32,057 nt of DNA from Endozoicomonas sp. G2_2. Lineage in GTDB: Bacteria; Pseudomonadota; Gammaproteobacteria; Nevskiales; Salinisphaeraceae. The DNA is taken from assembly GCF_017744135.1 (NCBI RefSeq), contig NZ_JAGHQU010000022.1:1-32057 (forward strand). The letters are read 5' to 3'. A program made the position numbers and the translations under genes. A model generated the notes under the pieces. It made no database searches, was not told where the DNA came from, and saw only the letters and a list, made by a program, of their open reading frames with translations. Within the stretch, counting starts at the first letter, position 1; each line of letters starts with the position of its first letter. This document shows, piece by piece, positions 1 to 32,057 of the stretch.

Positions 1-1072
1 CTAGTGACTCGGGGGTGTAGACTCCGCGGTCGCCTAAGGTCGGCCCGCCCGGCTGGACATAATCGACTCGGCCGCTTACGTTTGAAATAACCATCCCACG
101 CGCCGGCGTCCGGACAGGGATCGTCACCCCGACGTCGAAGAACGGCTGCAGCATGGCGGTGACCAAGCGATCGCAGATATGCCGAGCCTCCAAGCTATCA
201 ACGCAGCTAAAAACGATGTCGGCTTCGGCGACGGCTTCGATGGCATCTCGTTTGCTGATATCGCTCACGATAGGCCTAACACGCGTACTTGAGCGAATAC
301 GATTTGCAGCATTCGCAAATACGTCGACCTTTAGGACATTCTCACTCGCGTCAGCCTCCGTTGTGTTGAGTATTCGGTTCAAGTTTTTCTGTTCCACGCG
401 GTCATAATCCACCACGATCAATTCGCCAACACCCATGCGAAGCAACTGCTCGGCGACAACACTCCCCGTACCTGACACGCCCACCACCGCCACGCTGAGC
501 TTGGCCAACACGGTCGTCATTCCCTCACCGAAAGCCATGGTGTGCTTACACGGTTTCTCATCATCATCCCAGCAGAAGCGAAGGTCATTTCCGTAAATCG
601 CGACCAATTCCACAGCGTGAGCGCTCATCGTGCGGTCGTAGACTCGAGCTTTGATCTCGCCGCCGGGGACCATAATGGCGCTCCCATGCCAAGGCTGATG
701 TTCGTTGCGACCGACTGGACCTGCCATGATCAATGACCGGATGACTTCTTGGTCTGACTGATCGTCTATATGTGAGAATTCGTACACACCCGTCGGATGT
801 GAATGAAGCAAGAGAATAGACAAGTCATCCCCCTCTGCGGCAGCCAGCGCCTGGTCAATATATTCACCAGGCCAAGTCAAGTAGGAGGCCGTTCGATGAC
901 ACTGTTTATGGGGGACCTCAACGACATCACGGACGAGCAGTTTTAGCCCTGCACGTTCGACACGCGAACAGAGCAGAATAGCTGCGGCCTCCTTCCCATC
1001 GCCGGGGAACAGGTGCCTTTCTAGTCGTCGATGAGTAACACCTGGTAGAACGAGTGTGCGGGGCCGAATCAT
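1..1072 (-). CDS. JAB (JAMM) deubiquitinase-E1 (ThiF) fusion, 3' end outside window
   Basis: I translated this frame directly; 357 codons are present and it leaves the window without a stop. The N-terminal domain is a JAB/JAMM metalloprotease with every signature residue: Glu28, then H90-S-H92-P, seven residues from Pro93 to Phe99, Ser100 and Asp103 (the HxHx7SxxD pattern). The second half is a ThiF/MoeB/E1 adenylating domain with the nucleotide loop GVSGTG at 198-203, then IVVDYDRVEQKNLNR at 219-233. In this family the JAB half cleaves ubiquitin-like proteins and the E1 half adenylates their C-termini. The ATG at 1072 overlaps the stop of the upstream multiubiquitin-E2 gene (ATGA), so the two are translationally coupled. 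The true catalytic Cys of the E1 cannot be assigned with certainty; Cys residues occur in FSCVDS and HICDR. Family assignment is firm; the target is unknown. Confidence 0.9.
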   Translation of the reverse strand, partial: MIRPRTLVLPGVTHRRLERHLFPGDGKEAAAILLCSRVERAGLKLLVRDVVEVPHKQCHRTASYLTWPGEYIDQALAAAEGDDLSILLLHSHPTGVYEFSHIDDQSDQEVIRSLIMAGPVGRNEHQPWHGSAIMVPGGEIKARVYDRTMSAHAVELVAIYGNDLRFCWDDDEKPCKHTMAFGEGMTTVLAKLSVAVVGVSGTGSVVAEQLLRMGVGELIVVDYDRVEQKNLNRILNTTEADASENVLKVDVFANAANRIRSSTRVRPIVSDISKRDAIEAVAEADIVFSCVDSLEARHICDRLVTAMLQPFFDVGVTIPVRTPARGMVISNVSGRVDYVQPGGPTLGDRGVYTPESL

Positions 1073-2175
1073 GCCTCAATCTCCCGACCTAAGGCTTCAT
1101 CTACAAGACCCAAGTGGGTTGCGACGTTGTCACGAGTAGGAGACCAGCGATTAGCAGCATTGCGGTGGCGCGACCAGCGTTGGAACGACACGCCAACAAT
1201 AGTCTTCCGACCATCCGTAGCAGGCGGGGCTTTCCCGTTTTCGTGTGAAAGCGGGGGGTCACAGTAGAACATATCAATTTGCGCTGACGGATAAGACCGT
1301 GGAATCTCCAGCGCGAGACGACAACTGGGCACGTTGTAACCTCTGGGAACAGCATAGTTTTCGATTATCAACCAGCGGCGCCCACCCTCCGCGATGGTCT
1401 CCCAGCAATAGTTCGATGCCGTGAAAAAATCCTCGTCTTTTGGCAATAGTGAGAAGTCACGGCGGGGCGACTGTCCGTCACCGTTATTGACCTCTTTCGG
1501 CCGCAACCACAAGCGCTCGATTCCCGGCTGATCAAGATCGATGACATCGTCGAGTTCGACCGCGCTATGCGGCTTGCCTTTCATTTTTAAAACGATTACG
1601 CATTTTTGAGAGGTGTCGAAACCGGCTCTCACAAGCGCGTCTCGAACGATTACGTCTGGGTGATCCCATTCGGTAGGCTCACCTTGTACATCCAACCGCC
1701 ACTTCCGCTCACGCGTATAAAAGCGCTCTACGCCGGCACCGCTCAAATCTACTGACTCTCCGTGTTCAAGCTCTCGGTCAGGTTCATCTCGCAGTTCTAG
1801 CCAAACCGTTCGATTAGAGGGCACACGGCAAATCCGACGGATCGTTTCAAGGTCCAGTGGACCGGCCCAAGCGTAACGGTCGTCGTCAAAGACGAAATAA
1901 GAGACATGGTCCGCACGAATGGCCAAAAACTCGATAGCGGATCCATTCTTAGGAATGCGAGTCACTTCCTCCAACCCGATCTCTCGAGTCGGCCCCGTCT
2001 CAGGCCATAGCAACAGCGCAAACTCTGTATCGGGCCTAAGGTCTGCAGCGGCTATCACTTGCCGGCCAGTCGGAGTGCGGTCGGTTAGCGATACGGGCTC
2101 GCCATTGACGTAGACCCCCGACTTTTCGTCAGACACGTGGTTGGAAGAAGACTGACCGTTTTCGAAGCTGCTCAT
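1069..2175 (-). CDS. Triple ubiquitin-like (multiubiquitin) protein fused to a prokaryotic E2-like domain
   Basis: The 368-residue protein has three tandem beta-grasp-like repeats at roughly 20-88, 92-157 and 159-226. Each ends in a similar strand (EFLAIRAD, ERFYTRERKW, ERLWLRPKE), as in the Multi_ubiq family. Residues 245-368 resemble the prokaryotic E2 family E: LPKDEDFF near 244, VPRGYNVP at 276-283, IPRSYPSAQIDMFY at 291-304, FQRWSRHR at 331-338 and a terminal helix with THLGLVDEAL. Such proteins occur in bacterial ubiquitination-like operons with E1 and JAB partners, which is exactly what follows here with a 4-bp overlap. GGAGAA lies 9 bp before the ATG. The repeats end in charged linker sequence, with no exposed Gly-Gly. 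Cys residues in the E2 part are 257, 285 and 305 only; none lies after residue 305. Family is confident; mechanism is inferred. Confidence 0.85.
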   Translation of the reverse strand: MSSFENGQSSSNHVSDEKSGVYVNGEPVSLTDRTPTGRQVIAAADLRPDTEFALLLWPETGPTREIGLEEVTRIPKNGSAIEFLAIRADHVSYFVFDDDRYAWAGPLDLETIRRICRVPSNRTVWLELRDEPDRELEHGESVDLSGAGVERFYTRERKWRLDVQGEPTEWDHPDVIVRDALVRAGFDTSQKCVIVLKMKGKPHSAVELDDVIDLDQPGIERLWLRPKEVNNGDGQSPRRDFSLLPKDEDFFTASNYCWETIAEGGRRWLIIENYAVPRGYNVPSCRLALEIPRSYPSAQIDMFYCDPPLSHENGKAPPATDGRKTIVGVSFQRWSRHRNAANRWSPTRDNVATHLGLVDEALGREIEA

Positions 2176-2201
2176 CGCTCGTTCTCCAAATTTGTATCGT
2201 T

Positions 2202-2221
2202 TCGTTCGTTATAACGAACGA
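2202..2221. promoter_or_regulatory. Perfect 20-bp palindrome, candidate operator between divergent operons
   Basis: TCGTTCGTTATAACGAACGA is a perfect inverted repeat in the gap between the ubiquitin-like operon and the XRE-ImmA pair. On the minus strand a TTGACA hexamer lies at 2254-2259; with a 17-bp spacer the -10 would be the weak CATGGT (2231-2236), so the palindrome would cover the start of the leftward transcript. A rightward TATAGT lies at 2281-2286. Binding by the adjacent XRE protein is an inference from position and symmetry. Confidence 0.6.
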
Positions 2222-2314
2222 CTGGTGAGCACCATGACTGCTGCGAGCCATTCTGTCAACCGTTATTTTTTTGTTCGGTATATAGTATGGTCGCCATCCT
2301 TCTTAGGAGACCCA

Positions 2315-2641
2315 ATGGCAACATCAATCGGAAAAAAAATACGCTCCCGGCGAAACGAGCTCGAAATGAGCCTCGACCAACTCGCAAAGGCTACGGGGTC
2401 TAGTAAGGGATATCTTTGGGAACTCGAGAATCGGGAAAAGGCCAATCCTTCCACCGATAAACTCATCAAGATTGCTTCCGCACTGCGCGTTACAGAAGAG
2501 TTCTTACTGGATCGATCGACCGAGGTTGATCCAGAAACCGGCATGCTCGACGAAGCGTTTTTCCGCCGCTACAAACAGCTTGATACTAGGGCGAAGAAAA
2601 AGGTTCGTCAGTTTTTGGACTTTTGGGATGACGAGGACTGA
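2315..2641 (+). CDS. XRE-family helix-turn-helix regulator
   Basis: This 108-residue protein starts at the ATG preceded by TAGGAGA (2304-2310). A longer upstream frame to 2192 exists but runs through the promoter region and is unlikely. Residues 2-60 form a typical Cro/C1 HTH: IGKKIRSRRNELEMSLDQLAKATGSSKGYLWELE followed by NPSTDKLIKIASALRV. The C-terminal 45 residues are charged and end in FLDFWDDED, a short tail of the kind that ImmA-type peptidases could cleave. It is followed after 2 bp by the ImmA/IrrE gene. Paired XRE-ImmA regulators (for example CapH-CapP of CBASS systems) repress a neighbouring defence operon until DNA damage triggers cleavage. That role is inferred here from the divergent layout. 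Confidence 0.88.
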   Translation: MATSIGKKIRSRRNELEMSLDQLAKATGSSKGYLWELENREKANPSTDKLIKIASALRVTEEFLLDRSTEVDPETGMLDEAFFRRYKQLDTRAKKKVRQFLDFWDDED

Positions 2642-2643
2642 GC

Positions 2644-3531
2644 ATGCCGACCGGAAGCCCGATTGCCGAAGCCAATAAGATTTCTCAGCTGCTTCGAGCG
2701 CTACCTGACGAGGAGCGCTTCCCTGTCGATGTAGAAAGGGTGGCCAAGGAGGTGAGTAGAGTTCGATATGCGAACGAGCCTATCGTCTCGATTGAGCCCT
2801 TCGACATTAAGGGAGTCGATGGCCTCCTCGCTCAACACCCAAGTGCTAAGAAATGGAAAATCGGCTACAACAGCCAAATTCAGTCCCCGGGCAGAATCCG
2901 GTTTACGTTGGCCCATGAGTTTGGGCATTACATTCTGCACCGGCAACTGCGGAATCGGTGCCAGTGCTCACCTAAGAACATGTATGAGTGGGATGAGCGG
3001 AATATAGAGGCCGAAGCGGATGTGTTTGCATCGTTCCTGCTCATGCCGCTAGACGACTTTCGCACCCAAGTGGCTGGGCAATCACCGTCCATAGAAATGC
3101 TTCGCCGTTGTAGCGATCGATATGGGGTTTCGTTAATGGCGGCGGCTCTAAAATGGACAGAAATCGCAACACAGCGCGCGGTGGTGGTTGCCGTTCGAGA
3201 TGGTTTCGTACTATGGGCGAGATCAAGTCGTAGCGCCTTCAGATCGAAGGTTTATCTTTCGTCTAAGAAATTCACAATTCCAATTCCGGACGAGTCGGCT
3301 GTAAATCAAGCTGATGCTACTAGCGGGCCTATCACCGGCAAATTGAGGGCGAACGCATGGTTTAGTAACGAACCTAGCGACGTTGAACTGATCGAACACG
3401 CAATCGCATTTGAAGGCGACTACCCGTACACGCTAGGTTTGCTACTTCTGCCGGACGAGAGCCCTCGCTGGGAGTCACCTGAGAATGAGATCCTCGCTCC
3501 CGTCTACCAGTCTCTTCAGTGGCGGAAGTAG
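2644..3531 (+). CDS. ImmA/IrrE-family metallo-endopeptidase
   Basis: This 295-residue protein has the zinc motif HEFGH at 91-95 in the context RFTLAHEFGHYILH. The downstream helix EAEADVFASFLLMP (122-135) supplies Glu124 as the probable third ligand and carries the family's FAxxLLMP signature. The start lies 2 bp after the XRE stop, so the two genes are coupled. Members cleave HTH repressors, as ImmA does in ICEBs1 and IrrE in Deinococcus. The C-terminal half (about 170-295) has no motif I recognise and may be a sensory domain. It converges on the gene ending at 3601, and I see no terminator in the 69 bp between them. Confidence 0.88.
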   Translation: MPTGSPIAEANKISQLLRALPDEERFPVDVERVAKEVSRVRYANEPIVSIEPFDIKGVDGLLAQHPSAKKWKIGYNSQIQSPGRIRFTLAHEFGHYILHRQLRNRCQCSPKNMYEWDERNIEAEADVFASFLLMPLDDFRTQVAGQSPSIEMLRRCSDRYGVSLMAAALKWTEIATQRAVVVAVRDGFVLWARSSRSAFRSKVYLSSKKFTIPIPDESAVNQADATSGPITGKLRANAWFSNEPSDVELIEHAIAFEGDYPYTLGLLLLPDESPRWESPENEILAPVYQSLQWRK

Positions 3532-3600: not shown

Positions 3601-4563
3601 CTACGTTTCAAGCTGGCTCGCCGCGGGATCATCGATCTCGCGCAAGTCGTAGTAATCTCTACTAGCTCCGGTAGCCACATTCGTCACTCTCGTACGATTG
3701 AACAAAGCGCTTAACCGCTGCCCGATGCGAAGTCCCTGTACTCGCGGAAGCATTGTCTGCGGGAAGGTGGCTCTGATCACGTTACCTTGACCGCCGTCAA
3801 CTTCTATTCGTCCATTCCTGCCGATAAGATGAACAATACCTTCTATTTGAATAACTTCGCGCGTTTGAGCTGAAATTTGATGTAGCCGATCTGATAAAGC
3901 AGCAATAGTTGTGGCATTTGCCGTCCACTCGTATTTCGAGTGATCGGGCGCCCGCCACAGAATCGATGCCTCAAGCTGAGCTTTTTGCAAAGCATCAATT
4001 AAGTTCGTCAATTTTTTAGTACCACGATCTCCCAGAGCATGTACCTGTGCCATCAAGGCATCCTCCTGTTGGAAGTCGGTAAGTAACGAAAAAGTAGTTT
4101 CCAACGTGTCTTCGAGAAGACTGCGACCAAGTATGTCCGGATTCGTTTTGCCCGTGATGAACACGCGAGTAGATCCAGCTGCAAGCCCACCGAATCGCAA
4201 TCCAAGCATTTCCTTGAGCTCTTCACGGAACGGCCCCCTCGCTTCTAGCCCGCGCTCATGTCTACTTGCTGTGGCGTACAGAAATCTAGCGATATGGGTT
4301 GCTAGGCTACCGAGCAGGTCGAGCGGCAAAGTCCCATTCTGAGCTTTCTGCCCCGACAGCCGTAACTCCACGACTTCAACCTCGCGCTGCGCCTTTGCAT
4401 GCGCTAGCTGCTGCTGAAGGTCGTCTACGTGGTTACGCATTGATCCCAGGGCAATTTCCTGCGCAAAGTCTTCAGGCGCTCGTTCGTACTGCGCCTCAAG
4501 AACCCTAAGATGCTCGGTAGCGTTTTCGAGTAGGTTCTCAGTGCGACTTATATCAACAACCAT
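3601..4563 (-). CDS. Uncharacterised protein with N-terminal coiled coil, partner of the nucleotidyltransferase-like gene
   Basis: I place the start at the ATG at 4563, giving 320 residues, because it overlaps the upstream gene by 11 bp; a start at 4608 would add 15 residues and lengthen the overlap. Residues 1-75 are heptad-like and rich in Glu, Gln, Leu and Arg (ENLLENATEHLRVLEAQYE, VDDLQQQLAHAKAQREVEVVEL), so a coiled coil is likely. The middle is mostly helical. The last 80 residues (IVHLIGRNGRIEVDGG to RVTNVATGASRDYYDL) look beta-rich and might be an OB- or SH3-like fold. I do not recognise a family. The coupling suggests that it works with the DUF6932-like protein, possibly as the effector of a toxin-antitoxin or defence pair; this is unproven. 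Confidence 0.7.
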   Translation of the reverse strand: MVVDISRTENLLENATEHLRVLEAQYERAPEDFAQEIALGSMRNHVDDLQQQLAHAKAQREVEVVELRLSGQKAQNGTLPLDLLGSLATHIARFLYATASRHERGLEARGPFREELKEMLGLRFGGLAAGSTRVFITGKTNPDILGRSLLEDTLETTFSLLTDFQQEDALMAQVHALGDRGTKKLTNLIDALQKAQLEASILWRAPDHSKYEWTANATTIAALSDRLHQISAQTREVIQIEGIVHLIGRNGRIEVDGGQGNVIRATFPQTMLPRVQGLRIGQRLSALFNRTRVTNVATGASRDYYDLREIDDPAASQLET

Positions 4564-5068
4564 TGCAGCCCACCTCGATAATACCTTTGGGCCGGCCTTC
4601 CCTATCATGGCCGAAGAGTTCGCGCCAATACTGCTCCTGGTCGGCGTTGTCCGCTAACATCAGGTAGACATCGCAGCTGTATCTCTGTTTCACGTGTTGC
4701 CGCTCGGTAACAAAGATCTCTCTCAGGGCACTCTTCTCCTGCACACTGAGCGCGTTGAGATGACTACCTTCCACTATTACAACTAGGTCAACATCTGCAG
4801 GCTCAGGCTTGCTTGATAGCAAAGAGCCATCTACCCAGACTTTAAATGTCGTGCCTATTAGCTGAACCAAGTCCTCAAGGAAGGCGTGCAGCCTAGAGAC
4901 TAAATACGCTCTACGGCCCTTCCTGTCGGTGAACGAGTCAACGAGAATAGGTTTCATATCAGCCGCCGCCATCGGATGAACGCCAGCATCCAACAGCGGC
5001 TCGTACTCAATCGCCAAAGCCCTATGTCCTAAGTCTCCGAACCCCTCCGCTACAATGCTCGAAAGCAA
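4553..5068 (-). CDS. DUF6932-like protein with a nucleotidyltransferase-type GS...DxD core
   Basis: This 171-residue frame begins with TTG at 5068. An early segment, LLDAGVHPMAAADMKPILVDSFTD, resembles the GIHxxT...F opening common to DUF6932 proteins. The core FKVWVDGSLLSSKPEPADVDLVVIVEG (about 75-101) carries a GS followed by a DVD pair, the metal-binding pattern of the minimal nucleotidyltransferase fold. The family is poorly characterised; related small nucleotidyltransferases act as antitoxins or toxins in HEPN-MNT and AbiE-type pairs. The downstream coiled-coil gene overlaps this one by 11 bp. Position beside the ubiquitin-like operon supports a defence-island setting. The start codon is uncertain; the fold call is moderate. 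Confidence 0.7.
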   Translation of the reverse strand: MLSSIVAEGFGDLGHRALAIEYEPLLDAGVHPMAAADMKPILVDSFTDRKGRRAYLVSRLHAFLEDLVQLIGTTFKVWVDGSLLSSKPEPADVDLVVIVEGSHLNALSVQEKSALREIFVTERQHVKQRYSCDVYLMLADNADQEQYWRELFGHDREGRPKGIIEVGCNGC

Positions 5069-8106: not shown

Positions 8107-10224
8107 TTACTGCGATCGATCGGCTGCCCTGCTCTTGCGATCGAACTCAGCCCAGTATTCCTGCTCAAGCTCGGCCGTGATCTCCGGCAGGATCTCGCTC
8201 GACAGCTCGTGATTCTCGAAGGGCGACTTCGGCGCCTTGCCCGATTGAACGTGCCCTTCGCTGGTGGTGTCACCGCCCCCGCGAATCAGCAGATCCCGTT
8301 CTGCGAGCACGAATCCATCGGTGATCCGGCAGAAGTAGCTCAGCCGCTTGTGCAGCGGACCCGATGGCTCCTCCAGTAACAGGAGATCGCAGTAGCCCGT
8401 GCCGCCGGCGCGTGCGACGCGGCCGCGCAGCTGGTGAAGCTGACTCATGCCGAATCGATCCGGCTGCACGACCACGATCCGCTCGGCTGACGGCAAGTCG
8501 ATGCCGACCTCGAGTATCGCGGTCCCCACCAGAATCTGAGCGTCACCCCGGCGAATGGCTGCAATCGCCGCGTCATTCTCGAGCTGCTGCGCTTGGTCGC
8601 CACCGTGGGCATAAACCACCTTCCCAGGAAACAGACGCTCCCACACGTCGATGCTCTCCCGCAGGGCCGGCGCCACCGTGCCATCTTTCAAGACCGCGCC
8701 TTTGTTGAGCCGCGGGTATACGACGAGCATCGTCTGTCCCTGCTCAATCGCCTGGCGTAGGTCGGCGACGAGCTGCCCGCGCTGTGCTGGCATCAGAAGT
8801 CGATGCTCGAAGGTCTTCTCCACATGGGTCTGTGACAGGCGCGTAACGGCCCATTCGCCCGATTGCGCGAGCGCCGTCGTGCGAGGGATACAGGTCGCGG
8901 TGCCTTCGAGCAGATGGCCGGTGGCACCGGCCGGGCTTTCTCGCTGCTCTTTTGACATGAGCTGCTGCTCGTCAACCAGAACCGCGTCCAGCGTCTTGCC
9001 CAGGCCGGCGACCGCCTGCGTTCCGACCCAGATTTTCGCTTCGGGATCACCGCTGCGTCCCTCTCCCGTGACCAGGCCGATCGCGTGGCCAGGCAACCAG
9101 GCTTTCAGCTTGTCGTAGTTCTGCTTGGCCAGCAGCTGGCGAGGGGCCATCACCCCGACCGTGCCCCCACTGGCGGCGACGGCCGCGGCGGTAAGCGCAT
9201 AGATCACGGTCTTGCCGGTACCGACATCACCGGAGAGCACTCGGCGCATAACCGGGCCCTCGCACATATCCACCACGATCTCTGCCACCGCGGCGTACTG
9301 CTCGCTCGTCGGTGAGAACGGCATATTCACCGCGAGCTCGGTCAGGCCTTCGACCGTCGTGTAACGCGGGTCGGGACGAAAGATATTGCCCTGCGGCTTG
9401 AGTCGCATGTGTCGCCGGCGTGCTTTGACCGCCTCGCGCACATCCGAGGCACGAACGGCGACGGCCGCGACTCGATCAACTCGCGTCAGTGCCGCATCGA
9501 GTTCCTCTTGAGACGCTGGAAAGTGAATCGTGGTGAGCAATGCCCGGATGCTCTCCCGCGCGTTCGCAATGCTGGGATCACCGAGCGCGACACGTCGGCT
9601 GACCTGATCCTTGAGACCCCGGTCGAGCAGACGCTTGGCACTCGCCGACAAATAGCTGCGAAAGCTCTCGGGACTGCGCACCTCGCGGATGAACTCGTTG
9701 TGCAGCTTCGCCTGCTCCAGGTAGCTCCCGCCCACATCATCAAGGTGCTCGCGCGCGAGCGAACTCCGGGTCATGTGATGAATGTCATAGACCGGCCGCG
9801 GCTGACCGGTGCGGCTTGCCGCCATGGGTTCCGGATCATGGATATGCCAATCACGCCCCTGCCTGTAGACCGGTCCGAAGAAGGAGGCGCGCTTATCGTG
9901 CAGCTTCGCGAAGACCTTCCGGAGTCCTGGGGTGTCGAAGCTGATCGTGACGCTGACGTGGTGGCCATGGTGGTCGACGATCCGGGGCCGCCATTGCTCG
10001 TCGGTAATATCCGGGCACTCGAAACGGCCACACAGGGCCAGCGTGTCACCGTCGCCGGCGCTCTTTCGCAATGCCACGGCAAGATCGAGACCCTTCAACG
10101 ACGTGAGGGCCGCCGGGATCACTTCGTAGTCACCCGGGATCATGAGTGTGCGTAGGCGACGGGTGCTTCGTTGCTCTTCCATGAGAGATAGATGGCGATA
10201 TCTATCCCCACAAAGCCCCCTCAT
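8107..10224 (-). CDS. RecG-like superfamily 2 DNA helicase
   Basis: This frame encodes 705 residues (691 if the start is Met15 at 10182). The helicase core is clearly RecG/PriA-like: FSPTSEQ at 303, Walker A GDVGTGKT at 332-339, motif II DEQQ at 418-421, GTATCIPRT at 441-449, VGTAILEVGIDLPSA at 566-580 and QLHQLRGRVAR at 595-605. Classical RecG has DEQH and TATPIPRT, so this paralogue is diverged. The N-terminal 300 residues would hold the wedge/OB region (ALCGRFECPDI near 63-73), only weakly similar to chromosomal RecG. RecG remodels stalled forks and branched junctions; a plasmid-borne version might serve plasmid replication or recombination. It stands alone and leftward, divergent from the sigma-factor operon. 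Confidence 0.82.
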   Translation of the reverse strand: MRGLCGDRYRHLSLMEEQRSTRRLRTLMIPGDYEVIPAALTSLKGLDLAVALRKSAGDGDTLALCGRFECPDITDEQWRPRIVDHHGHHVSVTISFDTPGLRKVFAKLHDKRASFFGPVYRQGRDWHIHDPEPMAASRTGQPRPVYDIHHMTRSSLAREHLDDVGGSYLEQAKLHNEFIREVRSPESFRSYLSASAKRLLDRGLKDQVSRRVALGDPSIANARESIRALLTTIHFPASQEELDAALTRVDRVAAVAVRASDVREAVKARRRHMRLKPQGNIFRPDPRYTTVEGLTELAVNMPFSPTSEQYAAVAEIVVDMCEGPVMRRVLSGDVGTGKTVIYALTAAAVAASGGTVGVMAPRQLLAKQNYDKLKAWLPGHAIGLVTGEGRSGDPEAKIWVGTQAVAGLGKTLDAVLVDEQQLMSKEQRESPAGATGHLLEGTATCIPRTTALAQSGEWAVTRLSQTHVEKTFEHRLLMPAQRGQLVADLRQAIEQGQTMLVVYPRLNKGAVLKDGTVAPALRESIDVWERLFPGKVVYAHGGDQAQQLENDAAIAAIRRGDAQILVGTAILEVGIDLPSAERIVVVQPDRFGMSQLHQLRGRVARAGGTGYCDLLLLEEPSGPLHKRLSYFCRITDGFVLAERDLLIRGGGDTTSEGHVQSGKAPKSPFENHELSSEILPEITAELEQEYWAEFDRKSRAADRSQ

Positions 10225-10397: not shown

Positions 10398-10504
10398 ACA
10401 TGCCAGCGGTTTGCTCCTGTGAACGTCCTTTAAGGGGCATGCCCTCGTTTCGTCTGAATCATGCCGAAGAGCCGATACGCAGCCCTTGCGGCGCGCTATG
10501 CGGG

Positions 10505-10533
10505 GATCAGCCTGCGAGCAAAGGAGGCTGATC
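10505..10533 (+). promoter_or_regulatory. Stem-loop embedding the Shine-Dalgarno of the sigma-factor gene
   Basis: GATCAGCCT (10505-10513) pairs perfectly over 9 bp with AGGCTGATC (10525-10533) around an 11-nt loop. The ribosome-binding site AAGGAGG (10521-10527) spans the loop and the 3' arm, and the ATG follows at 10537. The fold would bury half of the Shine-Dalgarno, so control of translation by temperature or a trans-acting factor is plausible. That function is inferred. Confidence 0.55.
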
Positions 10534-10536
10534 GCC

Positions 10537-11628
10537 ATGACGAATTTTCCCGAACAACCCGACGCTTCGCGCGACCAGCGCGAGCACTATTTCCGCCAGG
10601 CTGATCGAGCGTGGGCTCGTGCCCTGACATGGGCGATTCAATGCGCGGCCGGGCGTCGCGCGCTGTATGACGTCCTGGCCTCTCGTTGCGCCGGCGAACC
10701 CGACTCGGGCATCTGGTTTCACTCCAGCATCTCGGTTGTCGCGGATGAGCTGTCCACGCTGAATAACGCGCAATGTCAGTGCCTACGAGCTGACCGTCGT
10801 CTCGCTGACCGCCTGCGGATCACGATGGATGGGATCTCGGCTGTGCTCGAGCATCTCGACGAGCCGATCCACGAAGAGCTGATGGAGCGCGTGGAGAAGG
10901 AACGCGCCCGTGGCCATGCATGGCTACACCGCCTCGTCATCGCGAACCTGTCGCTTATCGATTTCTGGATGGCCAAGCATGTGCGCGCGCACCCCCAAGA
11001 TCGCGAAGACATCGCCCAGGCGGCCCGCCAAGGACTCGTGCGTGCCAGCCAGCGCTTCGACGTCGAACGGGGCTTCCAGTTCGCAACATGCGCGTTCCAG
11101 TGGTTTCGAAGTTACGCGACCCCGCTGCGTGATAGCGCGCGATCTCAGGTCTCGACATCCCGCACCGACTGTCGCAATTTGCGTCGCATTCACGCGATAC
11201 TCGATACGCAGGGGCTATCGGATGCCACTTCACGCCAGGCGCCCTGGTTGGCCCAGCAGCTCGACTTGCCCGTTGCCGAGATCGAACAGCTGCTGAAGCT
11301 CGACCAGGCAGAGATGTCTATGGACGCGATCGAGTACAGCTCGGTACCGGTCGCGATCGCGACTGAAGACACCGAGGAGAGCGTCATCGCACTCGAACAG
11401 ACCAAGATGTGCGAAAGCGTTCTGGCTACCCTCGACAAGGCTACTGAGAAAGTTATGCGGATGCGCTTTGGACTGGGTTGTCCCCGCCCGTTCGAAGCAC
11501 ATGAGATCGCACGGCAACTGGATGTCTCGGTCGAGCGCGTCCGCCAGATCTACAACGCAGGCCTCCGGGCCCTGCGCGAAAACCATCAAGTCCAGTGCAT
11601 GACCATGCCCGTGGCAGCGAGCGCCTGA
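10537..11628 (+). CDS. Sigma-70 family RNA polymerase sigma factor, plasmid-borne
   Basis: This 363-residue protein starts at the ATG 9 bp after AAGGAGG. Region 2 spans about 129-200: LVIANLSLIDFWMAKHV aligns with the 2.1 helix of RpoD-type factors, DREDIAQAARQGLVRASQRFDVERGFQFATCAFQWFRSYAT with 2.2-2.4. Region 3 is about 213-262 and region 4 is 293-348 (LATLDKATEKVMRMRFGLG, then the HTH EAHEIARQLDVSVERVRQIYNAGLRAL). The layout is that of group 2/3 sigma factors with an unusual 128-residue N-terminal extension (AWARALTWAIQCAAGRRALYDVL) that has no motif I know. It probably directs RNA polymerase to plasmid promoters. The next gene begins inside its stop codon (TGATG). Confidence 0.87.
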   Translation: MTNFPEQPDASRDQREHYFRQADRAWARALTWAIQCAAGRRALYDVLASRCAGEPDSGIWFHSSISVVADELSTLNNAQCQCLRADRRLADRLRITMDGISAVLEHLDEPIHEELMERVEKERARGHAWLHRLVIANLSLIDFWMAKHVRAHPQDREDIAQAARQGLVRASQRFDVERGFQFATCAFQWFRSYATPLRDSARSQVSTSRTDCRNLRRIHAILDTQGLSDATSRQAPWLAQQLDLPVAEIEQLLKLDQAEMSMDAIEYSSVPVAIATEDTEESVIALEQTKMCESVLATLDKATEKVMRMRFGLGCPRPFEAHEIARQLDVSVERVRQIYNAGLRALRENHQVQCMTMPVAASA

Positions 11629-15734: not shown

Positions 15735-16793
15735 ATGACCATGACTGAAGACCGATCGAAGGCACTGAGTGCTGCACTCAAAGCGATCGAGAAAAGCTAC
15801 GGCACTGCCGCTATCTACAAAATGAAGGATGGGCCGAACGTCCAGGTTGATCGCGTTTCATCCGGCCTCATTGGGTTGGATCGCGTCATCGGCGGCGGTC
15901 TGCCGCGCGGCCGTGTCTTGGAAGTCTACGGCCCGGAATCGTCTGGCAAAACGACCATCGCCCTGTCGATCGTCGCGGCATTTCAGCGCGTGGGCGGCTT
16001 GGCCGCATTCATCGACGCAGAACACGCACTCGATCCCGTCTGGGCCGAAACCCTCGGTGTTGATGTCGACGAACTGCATATCGCACAGCCGGATACGGGC
16101 GAACAGGCGCTCGAGATCGCCGACATGCTGGTCCGCTCAGGTGGTATTGACGTTGTCGTGGTCGATTCGGTCGCGGCGCTCACGCCCAAGGCCGAAATCG
16201 AAGGCGATATGGGTGACTCCCATGTGGGGCTGCAAGCGCGTCTCATGAGTCAGGCACTGCGCAAGCTCACGGGCAACATCAAGCGCACCGGCACGCTCGT
16301 GATCTTCATCAATCAGATCCGCATGAAGATCGGCGTGATGTTCGGGTCGCCGGAAACGACCACAGGCGGAAATGCACTCAAGTTCTACGCCTCGATCCGG
16401 CTGGACGTGCGCCGCGCAGAGCAGATCAAGGAAGGCGAGAATGTGATCGGCGCGGTGACGCGGATCAAGGTCGCCAAGAACAAGGTCGGCCGCCCGTTTG
16501 GGAAGGTCGAACTGCCGCTCTACTTCGATTGTGGCCTATGTCCGGCGAGTGATCTCATCAACCAGGCACTCAGCGCCGGCGTGCTCGAGAAAAACGGCAG
16601 CTGGTATCGCTTTGACGGCCAGCAAATCGCACAAGGCCAGGCCGCACTGCGAAAGCGGTTGCTCGACAACCGCGATCTATACGATGCCATGCGCAATCGC
16701 GTGCTCGGCAAGGACAACCCTTCGGCGAATGACCCCGCCGCCGATATGGCCGGCACCGATGCCGGCAAGGAGGCTGTGGTCAGCACGCAATAA
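15735..16793 (+). CDS. recA: RecA recombinase, plasmid-encoded
   Basis: This 352-residue protein is co-linear with bacterial RecA: Walker A GPESSGKT (66-73), [42 protein letters not shown] with the Walker B strand, the L1/L2 region ([37 protein letters not shown]) and the C-terminal domain. RecA forms ATP-dependent filaments on single-stranded DNA, promotes strand exchange and activates LexA cleavage. Departures from the usual sequence ([15 protein letters not shown] in place of the MGD...V..ISTGSL-type stretch; [16 protein letters not shown]) mark it as a diverged paralogue. I see no LexA box of the CTGT-N8-ACAG form upstream, unlike chromosomal recA. GGGGTG precedes the ATG as ribosome-binding site. 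Confidence 0.95.
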
Positions 16794-18395: not shown

Positions 18396-19838
18396 ATGTC
18401 TGAATATGACCCATTCTCAAAGGTTGCCCGTCGAGATCGTCACCGGAAAGCGATCATCGGCCTGGGCATGATTGGCATTGGACTCTTGGTCATCTATGCC
18501 CTGCCGATGCTCACGTACACACGTTTCGAATTTACCGACAACACCACAACCACGACAGTCTCAAGCATCCAGCCTGGCCCTGCTGAAACCCAGCGCGAGA
18601 CTGACGGAGCTGATACAGCCGAGTTCGTGGCGTCACCGAGCTCTCCCCTTCCCCATGACACTGCCGCCACGCAGGCATCTGCTTCTGCAGCGCCAACTGC
18701 AAACGCAACGATCGAGAGCCAGACTAAGGCGTCATTGACCCTACAGCGTGACAGCTCGATCTCCCTGGATATCGAGCAGATCGCAGCGCAGCCGAACCAG
18801 CAAAACGGCGGCGCCGGCGGTCTGGCAGAGCCGGACCATGGCATTCAACCCTCGCTTGCATATCCCGAGCCAGTGATATCGATTGGGCCTACGACCATTC
18901 AACAGGCCGTTCCGGTTGGCGTCGATGAGGTGCCGGTAGCCACAGCGATCATGCCGCAAGCATCCAACTCATCGCCCCCTGTGCCCGTCAGTGGGCGCTC
19001 TGGCACCGCGGCGCATACCGACGACCAAGCAAGCGTGGCAGTCCCCTACAGGCGCCCTGCTCGCCCCGAACCGTCCATAGAAGCTGACCTTGTGACGATA
19101 TGCACTGTCCTGGGTAGACGGATCAATACGCCTGCTGACGAACTCTGCCCAGCTGACCGCACACTCCGCCTTGGAAGCACCGGGATGAATAATCCTGTGA
19201 TGGGACAGGTCATGAAGCAGAAGGACGCGGCACCGCGGGTCATGGTGATTGCGGGTGTATCAGGCACCCAGACTGGCAGCGTGGATACGTTGCTCCACTG
19301 GATCGACGATCTCGCGGCGACAAAGGACATCTCATGGCTGACGATCCCGATAGTCAACCCTGATGGGCTACTGGCCACACCGCCCCGCTCCAGCAATTTT
19401 CATGGGGTCATTCTCACCCGCAATCTGCCGACCAAGGATTGGTCTCATACGGCGACACTCGCCCAGCCTACGTCTCTGCGGGTATCTGGCCAGAACCCTG
19501 GCTCTCATGGTGGCTCCGAGTCTGAGGTCGCCGCTCTTGTCGCTTCGATCTCTGCATTTTCACCGGATTTGATCGTTGAGCTTCGTGCCGGCGATGGGCT
19601 GGTCACATTTCACGGAGATGGTGAAATCGCGGCGGACTGGGCGCCGTTGCTGGTTGGATACGAGCCCTATGAGCCGGGCTCACTCGCTCAGTATGCGAGC
19701 GGCGAAAGGGGTGTAGACGTCCTACAAATCAGCGTTCCGTCAGAGGACCACGCGCCTGCCCGTCGTGTTCGCCTTCGTATCCTCGACCATCTGCGCGATT
19801 TCGTGCGGACACGTTACTCCCTCCCCGCTCAGCCCTAA
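18396..19838 (+). CDS. Membrane-anchored M14 carboxypeptidase-like protein lacking zinc ligands
   Basis: The start at 18396 follows TGAGGA and gives 480 residues; a frame from 18333 would run through the terminator. Residues 17-40 form one membrane helix (AIIGLGMIGIGLLVIYALPM), and 45-230 form a Ser/Thr/Pro/Ala-rich linker. Residues 233-480 resemble the MpaA-type M14 fold: VMVIAGVSGTQTG (282-294), LTIPIVNPDG (315-324), HGVILTRNLPTKDW (336-349), GSESEVAAL (373-381), LIVELRAGDG (392-401). The zinc His/Glu of GxHGDE are Ser289 and Gln292, the third ligand His is Arg397, and the catalytic Glu of TxELP appears to be Ser446. Arg342 and Asn343 of the substrate pocket remain. Amidase activity is therefore unlikely; peptidoglycan-peptide binding is an inference. 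Its stop overlaps that of the convergent rep gene by 4 bp. Confidence 0.7.
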   Translation: MSEYDPFSKVARRDRHRKAIIGLGMIGIGLLVIYALPMLTYTRFEFTDNTTTTTVSSIQPGPAETQRETDGADTAEFVASPSSPLPHDTAATQASASAAPTANATIESQTKASLTLQRDSSISLDIEQIAAQPNQQNGGAGGLAEPDHGIQPSLAYPEPVISIGPTTIQQAVPVGVDEVPVATAIMPQASNSSPPVPVSGRSGTAAHTDDQASVAVPYRRPARPEPSIEADLVTICTVLGRRINTPADELCPADRTLRLGSTGMNNPVMGQVMKQKDAAPRVMVIAGVSGTQTGSVDTLLHWIDDLAATKDISWLTIPIVNPDGLLATPPRSSNFHGVILTRNLPTKDWSHTATLAQPTSLRVSGQNPGSHGGSESEVAALVASISAFSPDLIVELRAGDGLVTFHGDGEIAADWAPLLVGYEPYEPGSLAQYASGERGVDVLQISVPSEDHAPARRVRLRILDHLRDFVRTRYSLPAQP

Positions 19839-21361
19839 TTATCTGTTAGCGGCTCTGAGGAGCGCGTTTCCCGCGCGACCCTCCGCAAGCGCTCCAAGTC
19901 GATCTTCAAATCGACCGCACACGCTTCCCGGTCAGCATCGGTGCATTCGGGTAGGCAGTGCTCCTTAACCCAATTTCTCCAGAGTGATGAGACCCACGTC
20001 GAATTGCCGGTGGGATCCTCACGAAACATCTTCGCGATGAAGGGCGTCTGGCTGGTCTGATATTCACGGAACGCGTCCCACTGACGCTGCTTCTCGGTTT
20101 TATCGACTTGACCGATCCATTGCTCAGCTCTCCACTTCGGCAACAGCTCCTGCTCGAAACGGGCGAGCTTTTTCATAGCCTGTTGTTGCTCCTCCTCTTG
20201 CCGCCGATTATCACGCTCATTGCGGGTTTCGAAGTCGAGCACCTTCTGGGCGTCGGGTTGTTTGCCGCTGTAGTCACACTCGACAGCATTAACTGCCAAC
20301 CCAGAAATTCTGTTCACTGATTCAGGCTTTCGATAAAGCCTTTCAGCAACGAGATCGAGATTGCGGTTGATGTGATCATCACTGAAACGCGCGATGAGAC
20401 TGGACGCCCGAGAGTGCTCTATACCGAAAATCGTCAGCCGTTCGTAGGTTTCCGCGCGCGACTCCAGGGCATCCGTATCCAGCTGCTCAGAAACAGGGCG
20501 GATGGCTGGCATGGTCGGGCCTTCATATGAGGTATTTTCACGGACCTGAAACCTCACAGAGACAACCTGCTGGCCACGCCTGAAATACTCTGGCTCGACA
20601 AAGAGTTCGGTTTTGGTATTGATCTCTTTGACCGCTGGGGCAATCACACTACGTCGAAGCTCCTTGAACTTCTCGTAGCTAGCGGCATCCGAGATACCCA
20701 TGAGTTCACGGAATGTCTCCAGATCCCAAACCTTGGTCTGTCCCCACTCGCGATATCGTGCACAGTTCTCATAGAGACTCTGCGTATGACGAGACGTGAT
20801 CAGGTGCTGGATCGAGAAGTTCAGCCTCGCATAGACCGCGGGATTAAGAAGCTGATCTACAAGGTTGGCTGAGTACGAGTAGTAGAGAAAGCCATCCTTC
20901 TCGAAATCGTAGCCAGCGAGCCAAGCTGATCCGCCCCACCGCTTTGTTTTTGCGTCCTCAGTGATTGCCCACCTGATTTTTTTGGTGAGCAGCCGATCCA
21001 CGCAATTATAGATCTGCTTGTAATTGCGGCTGCCTGGCCGAAGCAACTCAACCAAGTCAGCAACGTAAATACGATGCATCCGCTGATGTTTAAGACTGTC
21101 CACAGACCCCATGCGGAGAGCATTCTGAAGCAGGACGTTTGCGAGCTGGATCTCGAGGAGGGTCAGCGGTGTCGCGCAATGAACCGCGTAGACGTGCTTA
21201 CGGAGTACAGTCGCATTGAGACTGATCGTCTCATTTTGCTCCTCCAGCAACGACATTGTCTGGCCCATCTCTGCCCGCTTGCCTTTATTTGATGGCAAAG
21301 CTAGGCGGCGATTCGTGACTCTGTCAACACCAACATACGAGCCGATGAGTGGTCGAATCAT
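19835..21361 (-). CDS. Rep_3-family replication initiation protein (first replicon)
   Basis: This 508-residue initiator has the two winged-helix arrangement of the Rep_3/RepB family. Landmarks are ATPLTLLEIQLANVLLQNA near 62-80, SRNYKQIYNCVDRLLTKKIRW near 113-133, TSRHTQSLYENCARYREW near 184-201, and FKELRRSVIAPAVKEIN near 227-243. The C-terminal 200 residues are an extension with a Gln/Glu-rich helix (NRRQEEEQQQAMKKL), beyond the usual 250-350-residue family length. The ATG at 21361 is preceded by AAGGA and lies inside the first iteron, which suggests autoregulation. Met32 at 21268 is a fallback start with no ribosome-binding site. Family members bind iterons and open the origin, recruiting DnaB. 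Confidence 0.88.
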   Translation of the reverse strand: MIRPLIGSYVGVDRVTNRRLALPSNKGKRAEMGQTMSLLEEQNETISLNATVLRKHVYAVHCATPLTLLEIQLANVLLQNALRMGSVDSLKHQRMHRIYVADLVELLRPGSRNYKQIYNCVDRLLTKKIRWAITEDAKTKRWGGSAWLAGYDFEKDGFLYYSYSANLVDQLLNPAVYARLNFSIQHLITSRHTQSLYENCARYREWGQTKVWDLETFRELMGISDAASYEKFKELRRSVIAPAVKEINTKTELFVEPEYFRRGQQVVSVRFQVRENTSYEGPTMPAIRPVSEQLDTDALESRAETYERLTIFGIEHSRASSLIARFSDDHINRNLDLVAERLYRKPESVNRISGLAVNAVECDYSGKQPDAQKVLDFETRNERDNRRQEEEQQQAMKKLARFEQELLPKWRAEQWIGQVDKTEKQRQWDAFREYQTSQTPFIAKMFREDPTGNSTWVSSLWRNWVKEHCLPECTDADREACAVDLKIDLERLRRVARETRSSEPLTDN

Positions 21362-24948: not shown

Positions 24949-25044
24949 TTTTACAAGGCGTTCTTGGTCTCAGTGGATATCGCCTTCCTGGAGCCGCGCT
25001 ATCTATGTCTATGAGTCCACAGCGACCCGCTTTAGAGGGTGTGG

Positions 25045-25064
25045 CGAGTTTCAGGTGAAACTCG
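25045..25064. promoter_or_regulatory. parS-like site 5
   Basis: CGAGTTTCAGGTGAAACTCG; 9-bp perfect arms around GG, 44 bp before the recD2-like start, so ParB binding could also affect this gene's promoter. Confidence 0.7.
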
Positions 25065-25107
25065 AAGGCCGCATCGCGCTACGTTAGCTACGCACGAGGT
25101 TGGGCCC

Positions 25108-27282
25108 ATGGAGGCAAAACTCAACGCTACAGTCGAGCGAGTGATCTACACCAACGAGGATAAGAGCTGGTCGCTCCTGGAGGTTGAAGATCAGGCCGGC
25201 GCGCTCACGCGCGCCAGTGGCGCTTTAGCGGAGGCCGCTGAAGGAATGCGTTTGGTCGCATCGGGACGTTGGGACAGTCACCGCGGGGTTCGGGTATTTC
25301 GTGTTGATGAGCATCGTCTCTATCAGCCTAATTCGACCGCAGGGATTCTGCGCTTCCTCTCATCAGATGCGATATCAGGGATAGGTGTCGAGACCGCAAA
25401 ATCGGTTGTTGATCACTTCGGGGCTTCAGCCCTGGATGTCATACGTGGTCAGCCTGAGCGTTTGGCAGAAGTGCCTGGCCTTGGTGAACGGCGCGCAATC
25501 ACCCTTTCTAAGGCTGTTGCCGAGAATGCCGGGAAGATCGAAGCGAAGCTCTTTCTTTATGAGCGCTTCGGTACAGCGCGGGCAGAACAGCTATACCGCC
25601 TTTACGGGTCCGAGGCGCCGCGCTTAATAGGCGAGAATCCTTACCGGCTTATTCGCGATGTTGAGGGCATAGGATTTCAGACGGCCGACGCATTAGGCAC
25701 GAGCCTCGGATTCAGACGAAACTCGTTTGAGCGCATTAGTGCCGCTGTTTTACACGCCATACAGCAACAGATCCGCAGTGGTGCCACAGCGATACTCGTT
25801 ACTCGCCTAATGGACACAATCATCAAGATACTGGCAGTGCAGGCACCGGATGTTGGTCAGACGATCACGAGACTGTCTGACGAAGGCGCCTTAGTTTCAT
25901 ATGAAACTCGGCATCAAAGGTTCTACACACTGCCAGCTGTTGCCAGAGCTGAGTGCGCGATAGCAGAACGACTACACGAGTTGCTCAAGCATGAGTCCTG
26001 CATCGCGAATGCCAGTATTGAATCTGGCCTTGAGTCTATGAACACCAAAGCAGGGCGTGCCTTGACGAAAGAGCAGGGTGATGCTGTTAGTGCGGCCTTC
26101 ACGCATAAGGTCTGCGTGATTACGGGAGGTCCAGGCACGGGCAAAACAGCAGTGCTCGACACAATACGAAAGCTGCTGCACAGCAAGGGCGTTGTCGTTC
26201 ACCTTTGCGCCCCAACGGGCCTGGCTGCTCGTCTGATGCGTGACGCGACGGGGGGTGACGCTTCAACGATTCATCGACTGCTTGAATACGACCCGATCGA
26301 GGGCCTGTTCACGCGCAATGAGCGGCGGCCGCTGTCCGGCGGTGTTGTGATCGTTGACGAGTCCAGCATGTGCGATGTGTGGTTGATTTCAGCGCTGTTA
26401 CGCGCAATGACCCCTGAGTCGCATCTGGTACTGATTGGCGATAGTGAGCAACTGCCATCGGTCAGTGCCGGTTGTGTCTTGAGAGACGTTATGCAGAGCC
26501 AAGTCGCGCCAACGGTGCGACTGACCCATACGTTCCGCCAAGAGGCCGGGAGCCGGATCATCAGCTTGGCGCGCACGATCAGCGCGGGCCAGATGCCGAG
26601 ACTTGAGAGTGGCGAAGGGGTCATATTCCACGACGCCACGCACCCAGACGCGATATTGAACATCGTGGTCGATGAGGTGGCGAGTTTCATACGAAACTCA
26701 AGCCTCGATATTCGAGCGGATATTCAGGTCGTGACGCCGCGTAATCGTGGACCGTTATCTGTCAGAGAAGCGAACATCAGGCTACAGCGAGTCTTTAATC
26801 CAGCGCCACGCCTATCGTTCCAGCGTAACGGCTACACGTTCGGGGTAGGGGACAAGGTTATGCAGGTGGTGAATGACGCAGGAAGAGAACTATCTAACGG
26901 CGACATTGGTTGGATCCAGTCAATCACCGAGGACGGAAAATCGGCGCGCGTTGTAATGTCACATTGCACTGTCGAGTACGACATCACTCAGATGGGCCAA
27001 CTCGTCTTGGCCTACGCTGTGACGGCACATAAAGCACAGGGTAGTGAGTTTCCGGTGGTAATACTGGCCGTTGATCGCTCAAGCTATAAGCTGTTTGACC
27101 GAACTCTGCTCTATACCGCTGTCACCCGAGCGAAGCAGCAGCTCATCGTGGTTGGCGATGGGCGATCGATAAAGTCCGCGATCAAACGTGACCACAGCCT
27201 CAATCGAACGACGACCCTACGAGCGCGACTTGAGTCCGCGCAACGCGAAACGGACCGCGGTGGCGTGGCGTCAAGCAGCTAG
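25108..27282 (+). CDS. RecD2-like superfamily 1B DNA helicase
   Basis: I start at the ATG at 25108 (GAGG at 25095-25098), giving 724 residues; the upstream extension to 25039 would run through parS-like site 5. The N-terminus has the OB-like segment (LNATVERVIYTNEDKSWSLLEVED) and helix-hairpin-helix repeats (ISGIGVETAKSVVDHFG near 91-107; LAEVPGLGERRAITLSKAV; VEGIGFQTADALG). The helicase core has TKEQGDAV, Walker A GGPGTGKTAVL (near 346-356), VIVDESSMCD (near 417-426), GDSEQLPSVSAG, LTHTFRQ, GDKVMQ, AYAVTAHKAQGSEF and LLYTAVTRAKQQLIVVG. RecD2 proteins unwind 5'-3' and act in fork repair without RecBC. Two parS-like palindromes lie inside the coding sequence. Confidence 0.88.
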   Translation: MEAKLNATVERVIYTNEDKSWSLLEVEDQAGALTRASGALAEAAEGMRLVASGRWDSHRGVRVFRVDEHRLYQPNSTAGILRFLSSDAISGIGVETAKSVVDHFGASALDVIRGQPERLAEVPGLGERRAITLSKAVAENAGKIEAKLFLYERFGTARAEQLYRLYGSEAPRLIGENPYRLIRDVEGIGFQTADALGTSLGFRRNSFERISAAVLHAIQQQIRSGATAILVTRLMDTIIKILAVQAPDVGQTITRLSDEGALVSYETRHQRFYTLPAVARAECAIAERLHELLKHESCIANASIESGLESMNTKAGRALTKEQGDAVSAAFTHKVCVITGGPGTGKTAVLDTIRKLLHSKGVVVHLCAPTGLAARLMRDATGGDASTIHRLLEYDPIEGLFTRNERRPLSGGVVIVDESSMCDVWLISALLRAMTPESHLVLIGDSEQLPSVSAGCVLRDVMQSQVAPTVRLTHTFRQEAGSRIISLARTISAGQMPRLESGEGVIFHDATHPDAILNIVVDEVASFIRNSSLDIRADIQVVTPRNRGPLSVREANIRLQRVFNPAPRLSFQRNGYTFGVGDKVMQVVNDAGRELSNGDIGWIQSITEDGKSARVVMSHCTVEYDITQMGQLVLAYAVTAHKAQGSEFPVVILAVDRSSYKLFDRTLLYTAVTRAKQQLIVVGDGRSIKSAIKRDHSLNRTTTLRARLESAQRETDRGGVASSS
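25893..25908. promoter_or_regulatory. parS-like site 6, inside the recD2-like gene
   Basis: AGTTTCATATGAAACT is a fully perfect 16-bp palindrome in coding sequence (within LVSYETRH). Confidence 0.6.
26682..26699. promoter_or_regulatory. parS-like site 7, inside the recD2-like gene
   Basis: GAGTTTCATACGAAACTC has 7-bp perfect arms around ATAC (within SFIRNS). Confidence 0.5.
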
Positions 27283-32029: not shown

Positions 32030-32057
32030 TAGACTCAGTGCCGGAAGAGCCCGTGAA

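Follow-up and report, generated by a model that had tools for sequence, protein, structure and literature searches.

We conclude that the left end of a 32,057-nucleotide stretch of DNA from Endozoicomonas sp. G2_2 (contig NZ_JAGHQU010000022.1, analysed at its full length and hereafter called the window) very probably carries a plasmid-type copy of the Bub operon, a bacterial ubiquitin-like conjugation cassette, together with a CapH/CapP repressor–protease switch, and that the E1 gene of this copy is interrupted by an inserted element. The identification follows from direct matches to solved BubA, BubB and CapP chains and from the match of a whole relative of the E1 protein to BubCD. The arrangement is already known from PMC1779556 (2006), PMC4963859 (2016) and PMC13373217 (2026), and on sequence grounds the Bub locus is assigned to type 6e of Iyer (PMC1779556). 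Coordinates of the features are collected in Table 1.

The Bub gene set and its domains

The open reading frame (ORF) running from 2175 to 1069 encodes a fusion in which Pfam recognizes three Multi_ubiq domains (1.1e-23) and one C-terminal Prok-E2_E domain (1.1e-35). Residues 26–232 match the multi-ubiquitin protein of PDB 9d59 (E = 2.5e-39); the ubiquitin-like (Ubl) part also matches Citrobacter BubA (9ea8, 1.4e-18), and the E2-fold part, over residues 233–366, Citrobacter BubB (9eav, 6.3e-32). The structure prediction that had been advised for this fusion gave a poor AlphaFold model (mean predicted local distance difference test score of 49.3, from a 4-sequence alignment), a point against our reading, and the fold assignment therefore relies on the sequence matches to solved chains, which do support the expected folds.

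The second ORF (1072–2, minus strand) overlaps the fusion gene (1072 versus 1069) and contains an N-terminal Prok-JAB domain (4e-9) and a ThiF domain (3.7e-29) in Pfam. The initial annotation had described two overlapping genes for a triple Ubl–E2 and a JAB–E1 fusion; the overlap and all of the domains are confirmed, but the window contains only part of the JAB–E1 frame, which reaches the edge of the contig after 357 residues. Across residues 3–357 this piece is 52% identical to the E1 of a Rhizobium relative (L003), whose whole protein matches Citrobacter BubCD over residues 9–462 (8.6e-134). All 30 aligned relatives (ORFs of <700 residues with E < 1e-120) have the same JAB residues, E28, H90, H92, S100 and D103, and the same ThiF motif residues, R233, K248 and D292 among them; seven weaker E1 relatives (L057–L059, L061, L062, L065 and L066) lie outside this count, which weakens it as support.

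For comparison of gene neighbourhoods we used 38 related loci, a chosen set of 21 plasmid loci, 3 genome-contig loci and 14 loci from a 398-genome sample (the window's own excluded), where the plasmid loci were taken from 60 listed of 98 matches with near-identical Enterobacteriaceae rows nearly all omitted; E-values across the set derive from profiles built on the matches themselves. A third gene, for the DUF6527 protein, is present in 35 of these loci (not in L063, which is a 3.4-kb contig end, L064 or L070; in L067 the match lies 1.4 kb from E1) and belongs to the Bub gene set. Its residues C55, C59, C97 and H100 occur in 32/32 aligned sequences, comprising 31 of the 35 ORFs (<200 residues) and the copy on contig C7 of the same assembly, and appear close to the type 6e metal-binding signature. 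The earlier picture of a whole ubiquitin pathway compressed into two polypeptides is not supported, in view of this third gene and of an E2-like domain that lacks a conserved cysteine. In the Rhizobium loci L003 (9859–10467), L072, L074 and L079, DUF6527 is followed by a gene whose annotation reads Clp protease proteolytic subunit, and the L003 protein matches the SDH-type ClpP-like family.

The border between the Ubl and E2 parts of the fusion is marked by a glycine in 23/23 fusions: all 18 that exceed 330 residues, the window's included, have NG at 231–232, and five shorter ones (L060, L079, L080, L084 and L085, of which L079 is a frame-disrupted copy) have NG or EG. Where Ubl and E2 proteins are encoded by separate ORFs (6 loci), the Ubl protein stops exactly at the border glycine in four: in these, L006, L081, L082 and L083, BubA has its own gene beside the E2 gene and the C-terminus is exactly ..TEG. 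The solved chain 9d59 likewise terminates at the glycine equivalent to G232. With a conserved border glycine and a separate BubA that ends there, the fusion resembles a precursor processed by JAB: we predict that G232, after the third Ubl domain, is the mature C-terminus and conjugatable glycine, and that the JAB domain probably cleaves after it. Weighing against this are the standalone Ubl proteins, of which only 4 of 15 end at glycine (two L079 fragments excluded); nine of the other 11 end in serine, all in loci without an E2 match, and in those of L067 and L069 at least one residue follows ..FG. The serine-ended multi-Ubl proteins (L057–L059, L061, L062, L064–L066 and L070), many of them ending ..FNV....S, suggest a branch with different processing or without conjugation.

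Among 29 aligned E2 domains (28 ORFs and the window; ten loci without an E2 match, L057–L059, L061–L066 and L070, excluded), no cysteine is conserved, the best column being C305 with 13/29, and a canonical E2 (UBC) was rejected on this count; the residues present in 29/29 are instead Y295, P296, W334, S335, H337 and W344. Nor is there, in the 30 aligned E1 relatives, a conserved cysteine farther along than C290 of the adenylation motif (29/30), and the two cysteines in the JAB part reach 24/30 and 23/30. Since a conserved transfer cysteine is lacking from the E2 domain and from the aligned E1s alike, we tentatively suggest that Bub may carry its Ubl without a thioester, the glycine passing from the adenylate to the target directly or via a serine such as S335, which lies next to H337 in BubB and, like H337, is found in every aligned domain. 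Oxyester chemistry has reportedly been discussed for Bub. A normal thioester E2 using C305 is a rather unlikely alternative: the window does have this cysteine, and it is shared without exception by the window and the three relatives closest to it, but 16 of the 29 aligned domains lack it, and the available part of PMC1779556 already described the type 6e domain in 2006 as one without the E2 cysteine.

Among known systems, the Citrobacter Bub operon (PDB 9d59, 9ea4, 9ea5, 9ea8, 9eae and 9eav) shares the three Ubl domains, the E2-fold BubB and the JAB–E1 BubCD, and the window copy differs from it in its interrupted E1 and its CapH/CapP-like regulator. Type 6e of Iyer, Burroughs and Aravind, as given in the accessible text of PMC1779556, has the same multi-Ubl and cysteine-less E2/RWD-like fusion, JAB–E1 and treble-clef protein, and is of the same kind; only DUF6527 has been displaced to another contig by the insertion. 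The multiubiquitin cassette of Synechocystis pSYSX, which is accompanied by slr6056–slr6057, is the same cassette with a divergent helix-turn-helix and ImmA pair, but there BubA and BubB are separate genes and the ImmA protein is a weak CapP match (5.9e-7). Identity with the Bil system (BilABCD) was rejected; the Ubl part matches BilA (8u38) at 2e-10, and such matches are much weaker than those to Bub. A type II cyclic-oligonucleotide-based antiphage signalling system (CBASS) was also rejected, as no CD-NTase was found and the nearby nucleotidyltransferase is a DUF6932 protein found in 0/38 loci.

The CapH/CapP pair and the leftward promoter

Divergent from the operon lie an XRE repressor and an ImmA-type peptidase, as had been noted at the outset, and family and PADLOC profiles identify them as CapH- and CapP-type proteins (Table 1). 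The CapP-type protein matches PDB 7t5t ('CapP toxin') at 5.8e-60, and its HEFGH sequence, an HExxH zinc protease motif, aligns with 7t5t and 17 relatives. CapP has a cysteine switch. The CapH-type protein matches PDB 7t5u (2.7e-13), an entry listed only as a helix-turn-helix protein, which we take to be CapH. Cleavage of CapH presumably occurs near F82–F83, and the window protein has FF at 82–83. Whereas the CapH–CapP regulators of CBASS share the short XRE repressor, the M78 peptidase and the divergent layout, the window pair would guard a Bub operon instead.

According to the available part of PMC13373217, CapH is a repressor that is cut by the single-stranded-DNA-activated protease CapP, and DNA damage is the signal to which the two respond; CapW or CapH plus CapP is counted there in 219 of 544 Bub operons. 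In our set, the neighbourhood comparison proposed earlier found a divergent CapP-type protein (E at most 1e-40) in 17/38 loci, with a weak match in 2 more; in 5/38 a large protein that resembles CapP weakly over a stretch of its length is encoded upstream on the same strand; and no CapP-type match is present in 14/38, which counts against our reading.

Two of the large proteins (L058:7439–10825, minus strand; L068:3253–6663, plus strand) are fusions of about 1,130 residues that combine M78, UvrD helicase and PD-(D/E)XK nuclease domains directly upstream of the Ubl gene, and perhaps unite a damage sensor and a protease in one chain; L059, L060 and L070 have similar large ORFs, the domain scan having covered L058 and L068. 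In L004, L071, L073 and L080, the XRE and Ubl genes are separated by the genes of a small regulator (CopG-type in the first three; 'transcriptional regulator' by annotation in L080) and of a second protein that is either GNAT or unnamed.

The intergenic region contains candidate sites for the repressor. A perfect palindrome, the probable CapH operator, stands downstream of a -35-like hexamer; when the bases of the 190-base region were shuffled 2000 times, gap-free palindromes with arms of at least 9 arose in 3 of the shuffles, and the 18-bp core has a single occurrence in 32 kb (100 shuffles gave a mean of 0.00). A half-site pattern, picked after the sites were seen, has 4 matches against a shuffle mean of 0.69, and 4 matches were reached in 1 of 100 shuffles. 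The half-site, the hexamer and the ribosome-binding region align with those of L045–L047 (L045 being from Rhodanobacter spathiphylli), whose fusions are 64–71% identical to that of the window, and L047 retains the palindrome, with a wider gap between its arms. Several results point the other way: among 18 intergenic regions scanned, only the window and L047 have the palindrome; the close relatives L045 and L046 show none with arms of at least 6; the remaining 14 regions have other palindromes or none; and a promoter scan of 1900–2600 found no full sigma-70 promoter. The presumed link between the leftward promoter and the XRE protein is supported by operator-like sites and weakened by their partial conservation, and taken together the sequence features support, but do not prove, control of this promoter by CapH.

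The same kind of pair has been read as a toxin–antitoxin module, which here would stabilise the cassette or the plasmid and not act on transcription. In the accessible portion of PMC4963859 (2016), 70% of PF14452 proteins adjoin XRE–COG2856 loci, read as toxin–antitoxin pairs, the homologous Synechocystis pair among them, and the name under which 7t5t is deposited agrees with this. We nevertheless hold a toxin–antitoxin role to be unlikely, given that the window proteins match PADLOC capH and capP, that CapH is described in the available part of PMC13373217 as a repressor cut by activated CapP, that the layout is divergent, a palindrome lying at the promoter of the cassette itself, and that other loci have different regulators on the same side, such as a WYL protein in L002.

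Interruption of the E1 gene

The window coincides exactly with contig C14 of the draft assembly (32,057 bases), and the E1 gene runs off the start of this contig after residue 357. The C-terminal remainder is encoded on contig C7 (C7:120–443), with DUF6527 next to it, and in alignments with relatives the C7-encoded residues continue directly from the last E1 residues of the window. On C7, 125 bases of an element directly abut the remainder, with an in-frame stop within the element just ahead of it, and these bases recur at four other contig ends with 99–100% identity. The two end types of the element read as imperfect inverted repeats. At each of the five ends of the first type, the flanking sequence shares a direct repeat with a different contig end; the repeat is 9 bases long in 3 pairs and 7 in 2, both of the latter involving C14, a contig that seems to have lost two bases from either end.

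From the element at the contig ends and the pairing target repeats we conclude that E1 is interrupted in this assembly: copies of one insertion element flank C14 at both ends, the left copy being inside the E1 gene, and it is this insertion that places DUF6527 on a separate contig. An uninterrupted E1 gene, as expected of a Bub operon, was not found in the assembly. Positions 32051–32057 likewise resemble a target repeat of the same multicopy element, and the repeat pairs suggest a contig order C12–C7–C14–C9–C2, about 310 kb in all. The element had no match in plasmid records.

Against the interruption it must be said that it is deduced from contig ends of a draft assembly, with the element interior not seen. 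One could accordingly suppose that E1 is intact in the organism and that assembly at a repeat produced a false break, as the assembly consists of 33 contigs and C14 itself shows no element bases. This is very unlikely in view of the 125 element bases and in-frame stop adjoining the E1 remainder on C7, the pairing of five element ends by 7–9-base direct repeats, and a profile search of the genome in which Multi_ubiq matched only the window gene, so that no second copy was seen. Because its E1 gene is interrupted, this Bub copy is probably broken and non-working.

Table 1. Features of the Bub locus and its surroundings (window coordinates; C7 denotes the second contig)
Feature	Position	Strand	Remarks
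BubCD, JAB peptidase and ThiF/E1 adenylation domain	1..1072	-	First 357 residues only; cut at element insertion
Visible part of target-site repeat (7 bases)	1..7	.	C7 has identical bases after the element end
BubA–BubB fusion	1069..2175	-	368 residues; three ubiquitin-like domains, then E2-fold domain
bubAB ribosome-binding region	2183..2191	-	Invariant ATTTGGAGA, 4/4 aligned
Perfect palindrome, 20 bp	2202..2221	.	Probable CapH operator (predicted), downstream of the -35 of the operon promoter
TTGACA -35-like hexamer, leftward promoter	2254..2259	-	Invariant, 4/4 aligned intergenic regions
Possible second operator half-site	2270..2282	-	1 mismatch to pattern; upstream of -35, in CapH leader
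CapH-type XRE repressor	2315..2641	+	108 residues; HTH_3 1.5e-11; PADLOC capH 9.3e-25
CapP-type M78/ImmA metallopeptidase	2644..3531	+	295 residues; Peptidase_M78 6.9e-18; PADLOC capP 3.4e-64
Nucleotidyltransferase pair, DUF6932 and partner	3601..5068	-	PADLOC defence candidates PDC-M63A, PDC-M63B
DUF6527 protein (small, treble-clef metal-binding)	C7:455..811		Beyond element, downstream of E1; 2.1e-22

Replicon, distribution and biological meaning

Two Rep_3 initiators (19835–21361 and 27534–28805) together with ParA-type and ParB-type proteins make a plasmid-type replicon likely, in agreement with the plasmid carriage first suggested; no close plasmid relative of the backbone was found, the best rows covering 2% of the query. 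The window also encodes its own RecA (15735–16793), a RecD2-like helicase (25039–27282), a DEAD/Suv3-like helicase (8107–10224) and a sigma-region-4 protein (10486–11628). That the adjacent nucleotidyltransferase pair (5068–3601), with its DUF6932 protein and PADLOC candidates PDC-M63A/B, belongs to the system, in the manner of CBASS-like operons, is highly improbable, since it is found in 0/38 other loci within the stretches examined, is transcribed convergently with CapP and includes a partner protein that matches only 2 plasmid records; a role of the DUF6932/PDC-M63B pair in Bub was rejected on the 0/38 count.

Multi_ubiq matches occur in 15 of the 398 genomes of the phylum sample, 13 of them above the curated cut-off, and the fusion protein matches 98 of 72,556 plasmid records and 0 of 50,697 phage records. 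A scan of viral contigs with only two peptide patterns confirmed 0 of 26 candidates.

For intact relatives of this locus we propose the following mechanism. CapH would sit on sites around the bubAB promoter and keep the operon shut; damage or infection would generate single-stranded DNA and activate CapP, which, judging by homology, would cut CapH and turn the operon on. The JAB domain would then cleave the BubA–BubB precursor after the glycine of the last Ubl domain, the ThiF domain would adenylate the exposed glycine, and BubB with its E2 fold, perhaps assisted by DUF6527 as a treble-clef protein, would help to transfer the Ubl to a target, from which JAB could take it off again. Damage induction and phage defence are inferred for this locus: the available part of a review (PMC12687455) states that such systems, Bil-type and Bub named jointly, appear mainly phage-defensive, and the portion of PMC13373217 (2026) available describes phage protection by Bub operons as not demonstrated.

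The locus is thus a further plasmid-type example of a Bub operon with a switch of the CapH/CapP type, and no new pathway. It yields two predictions from sequence, namely (i) that JAB would cut after G232 and (ii) that the operator would lie at 2202–2221, with an additional half-site at 2270–2282. Finally, the inserted element suggests that the replicon tolerates losing Bub, which bears on the question of what Bub costs its carrier.

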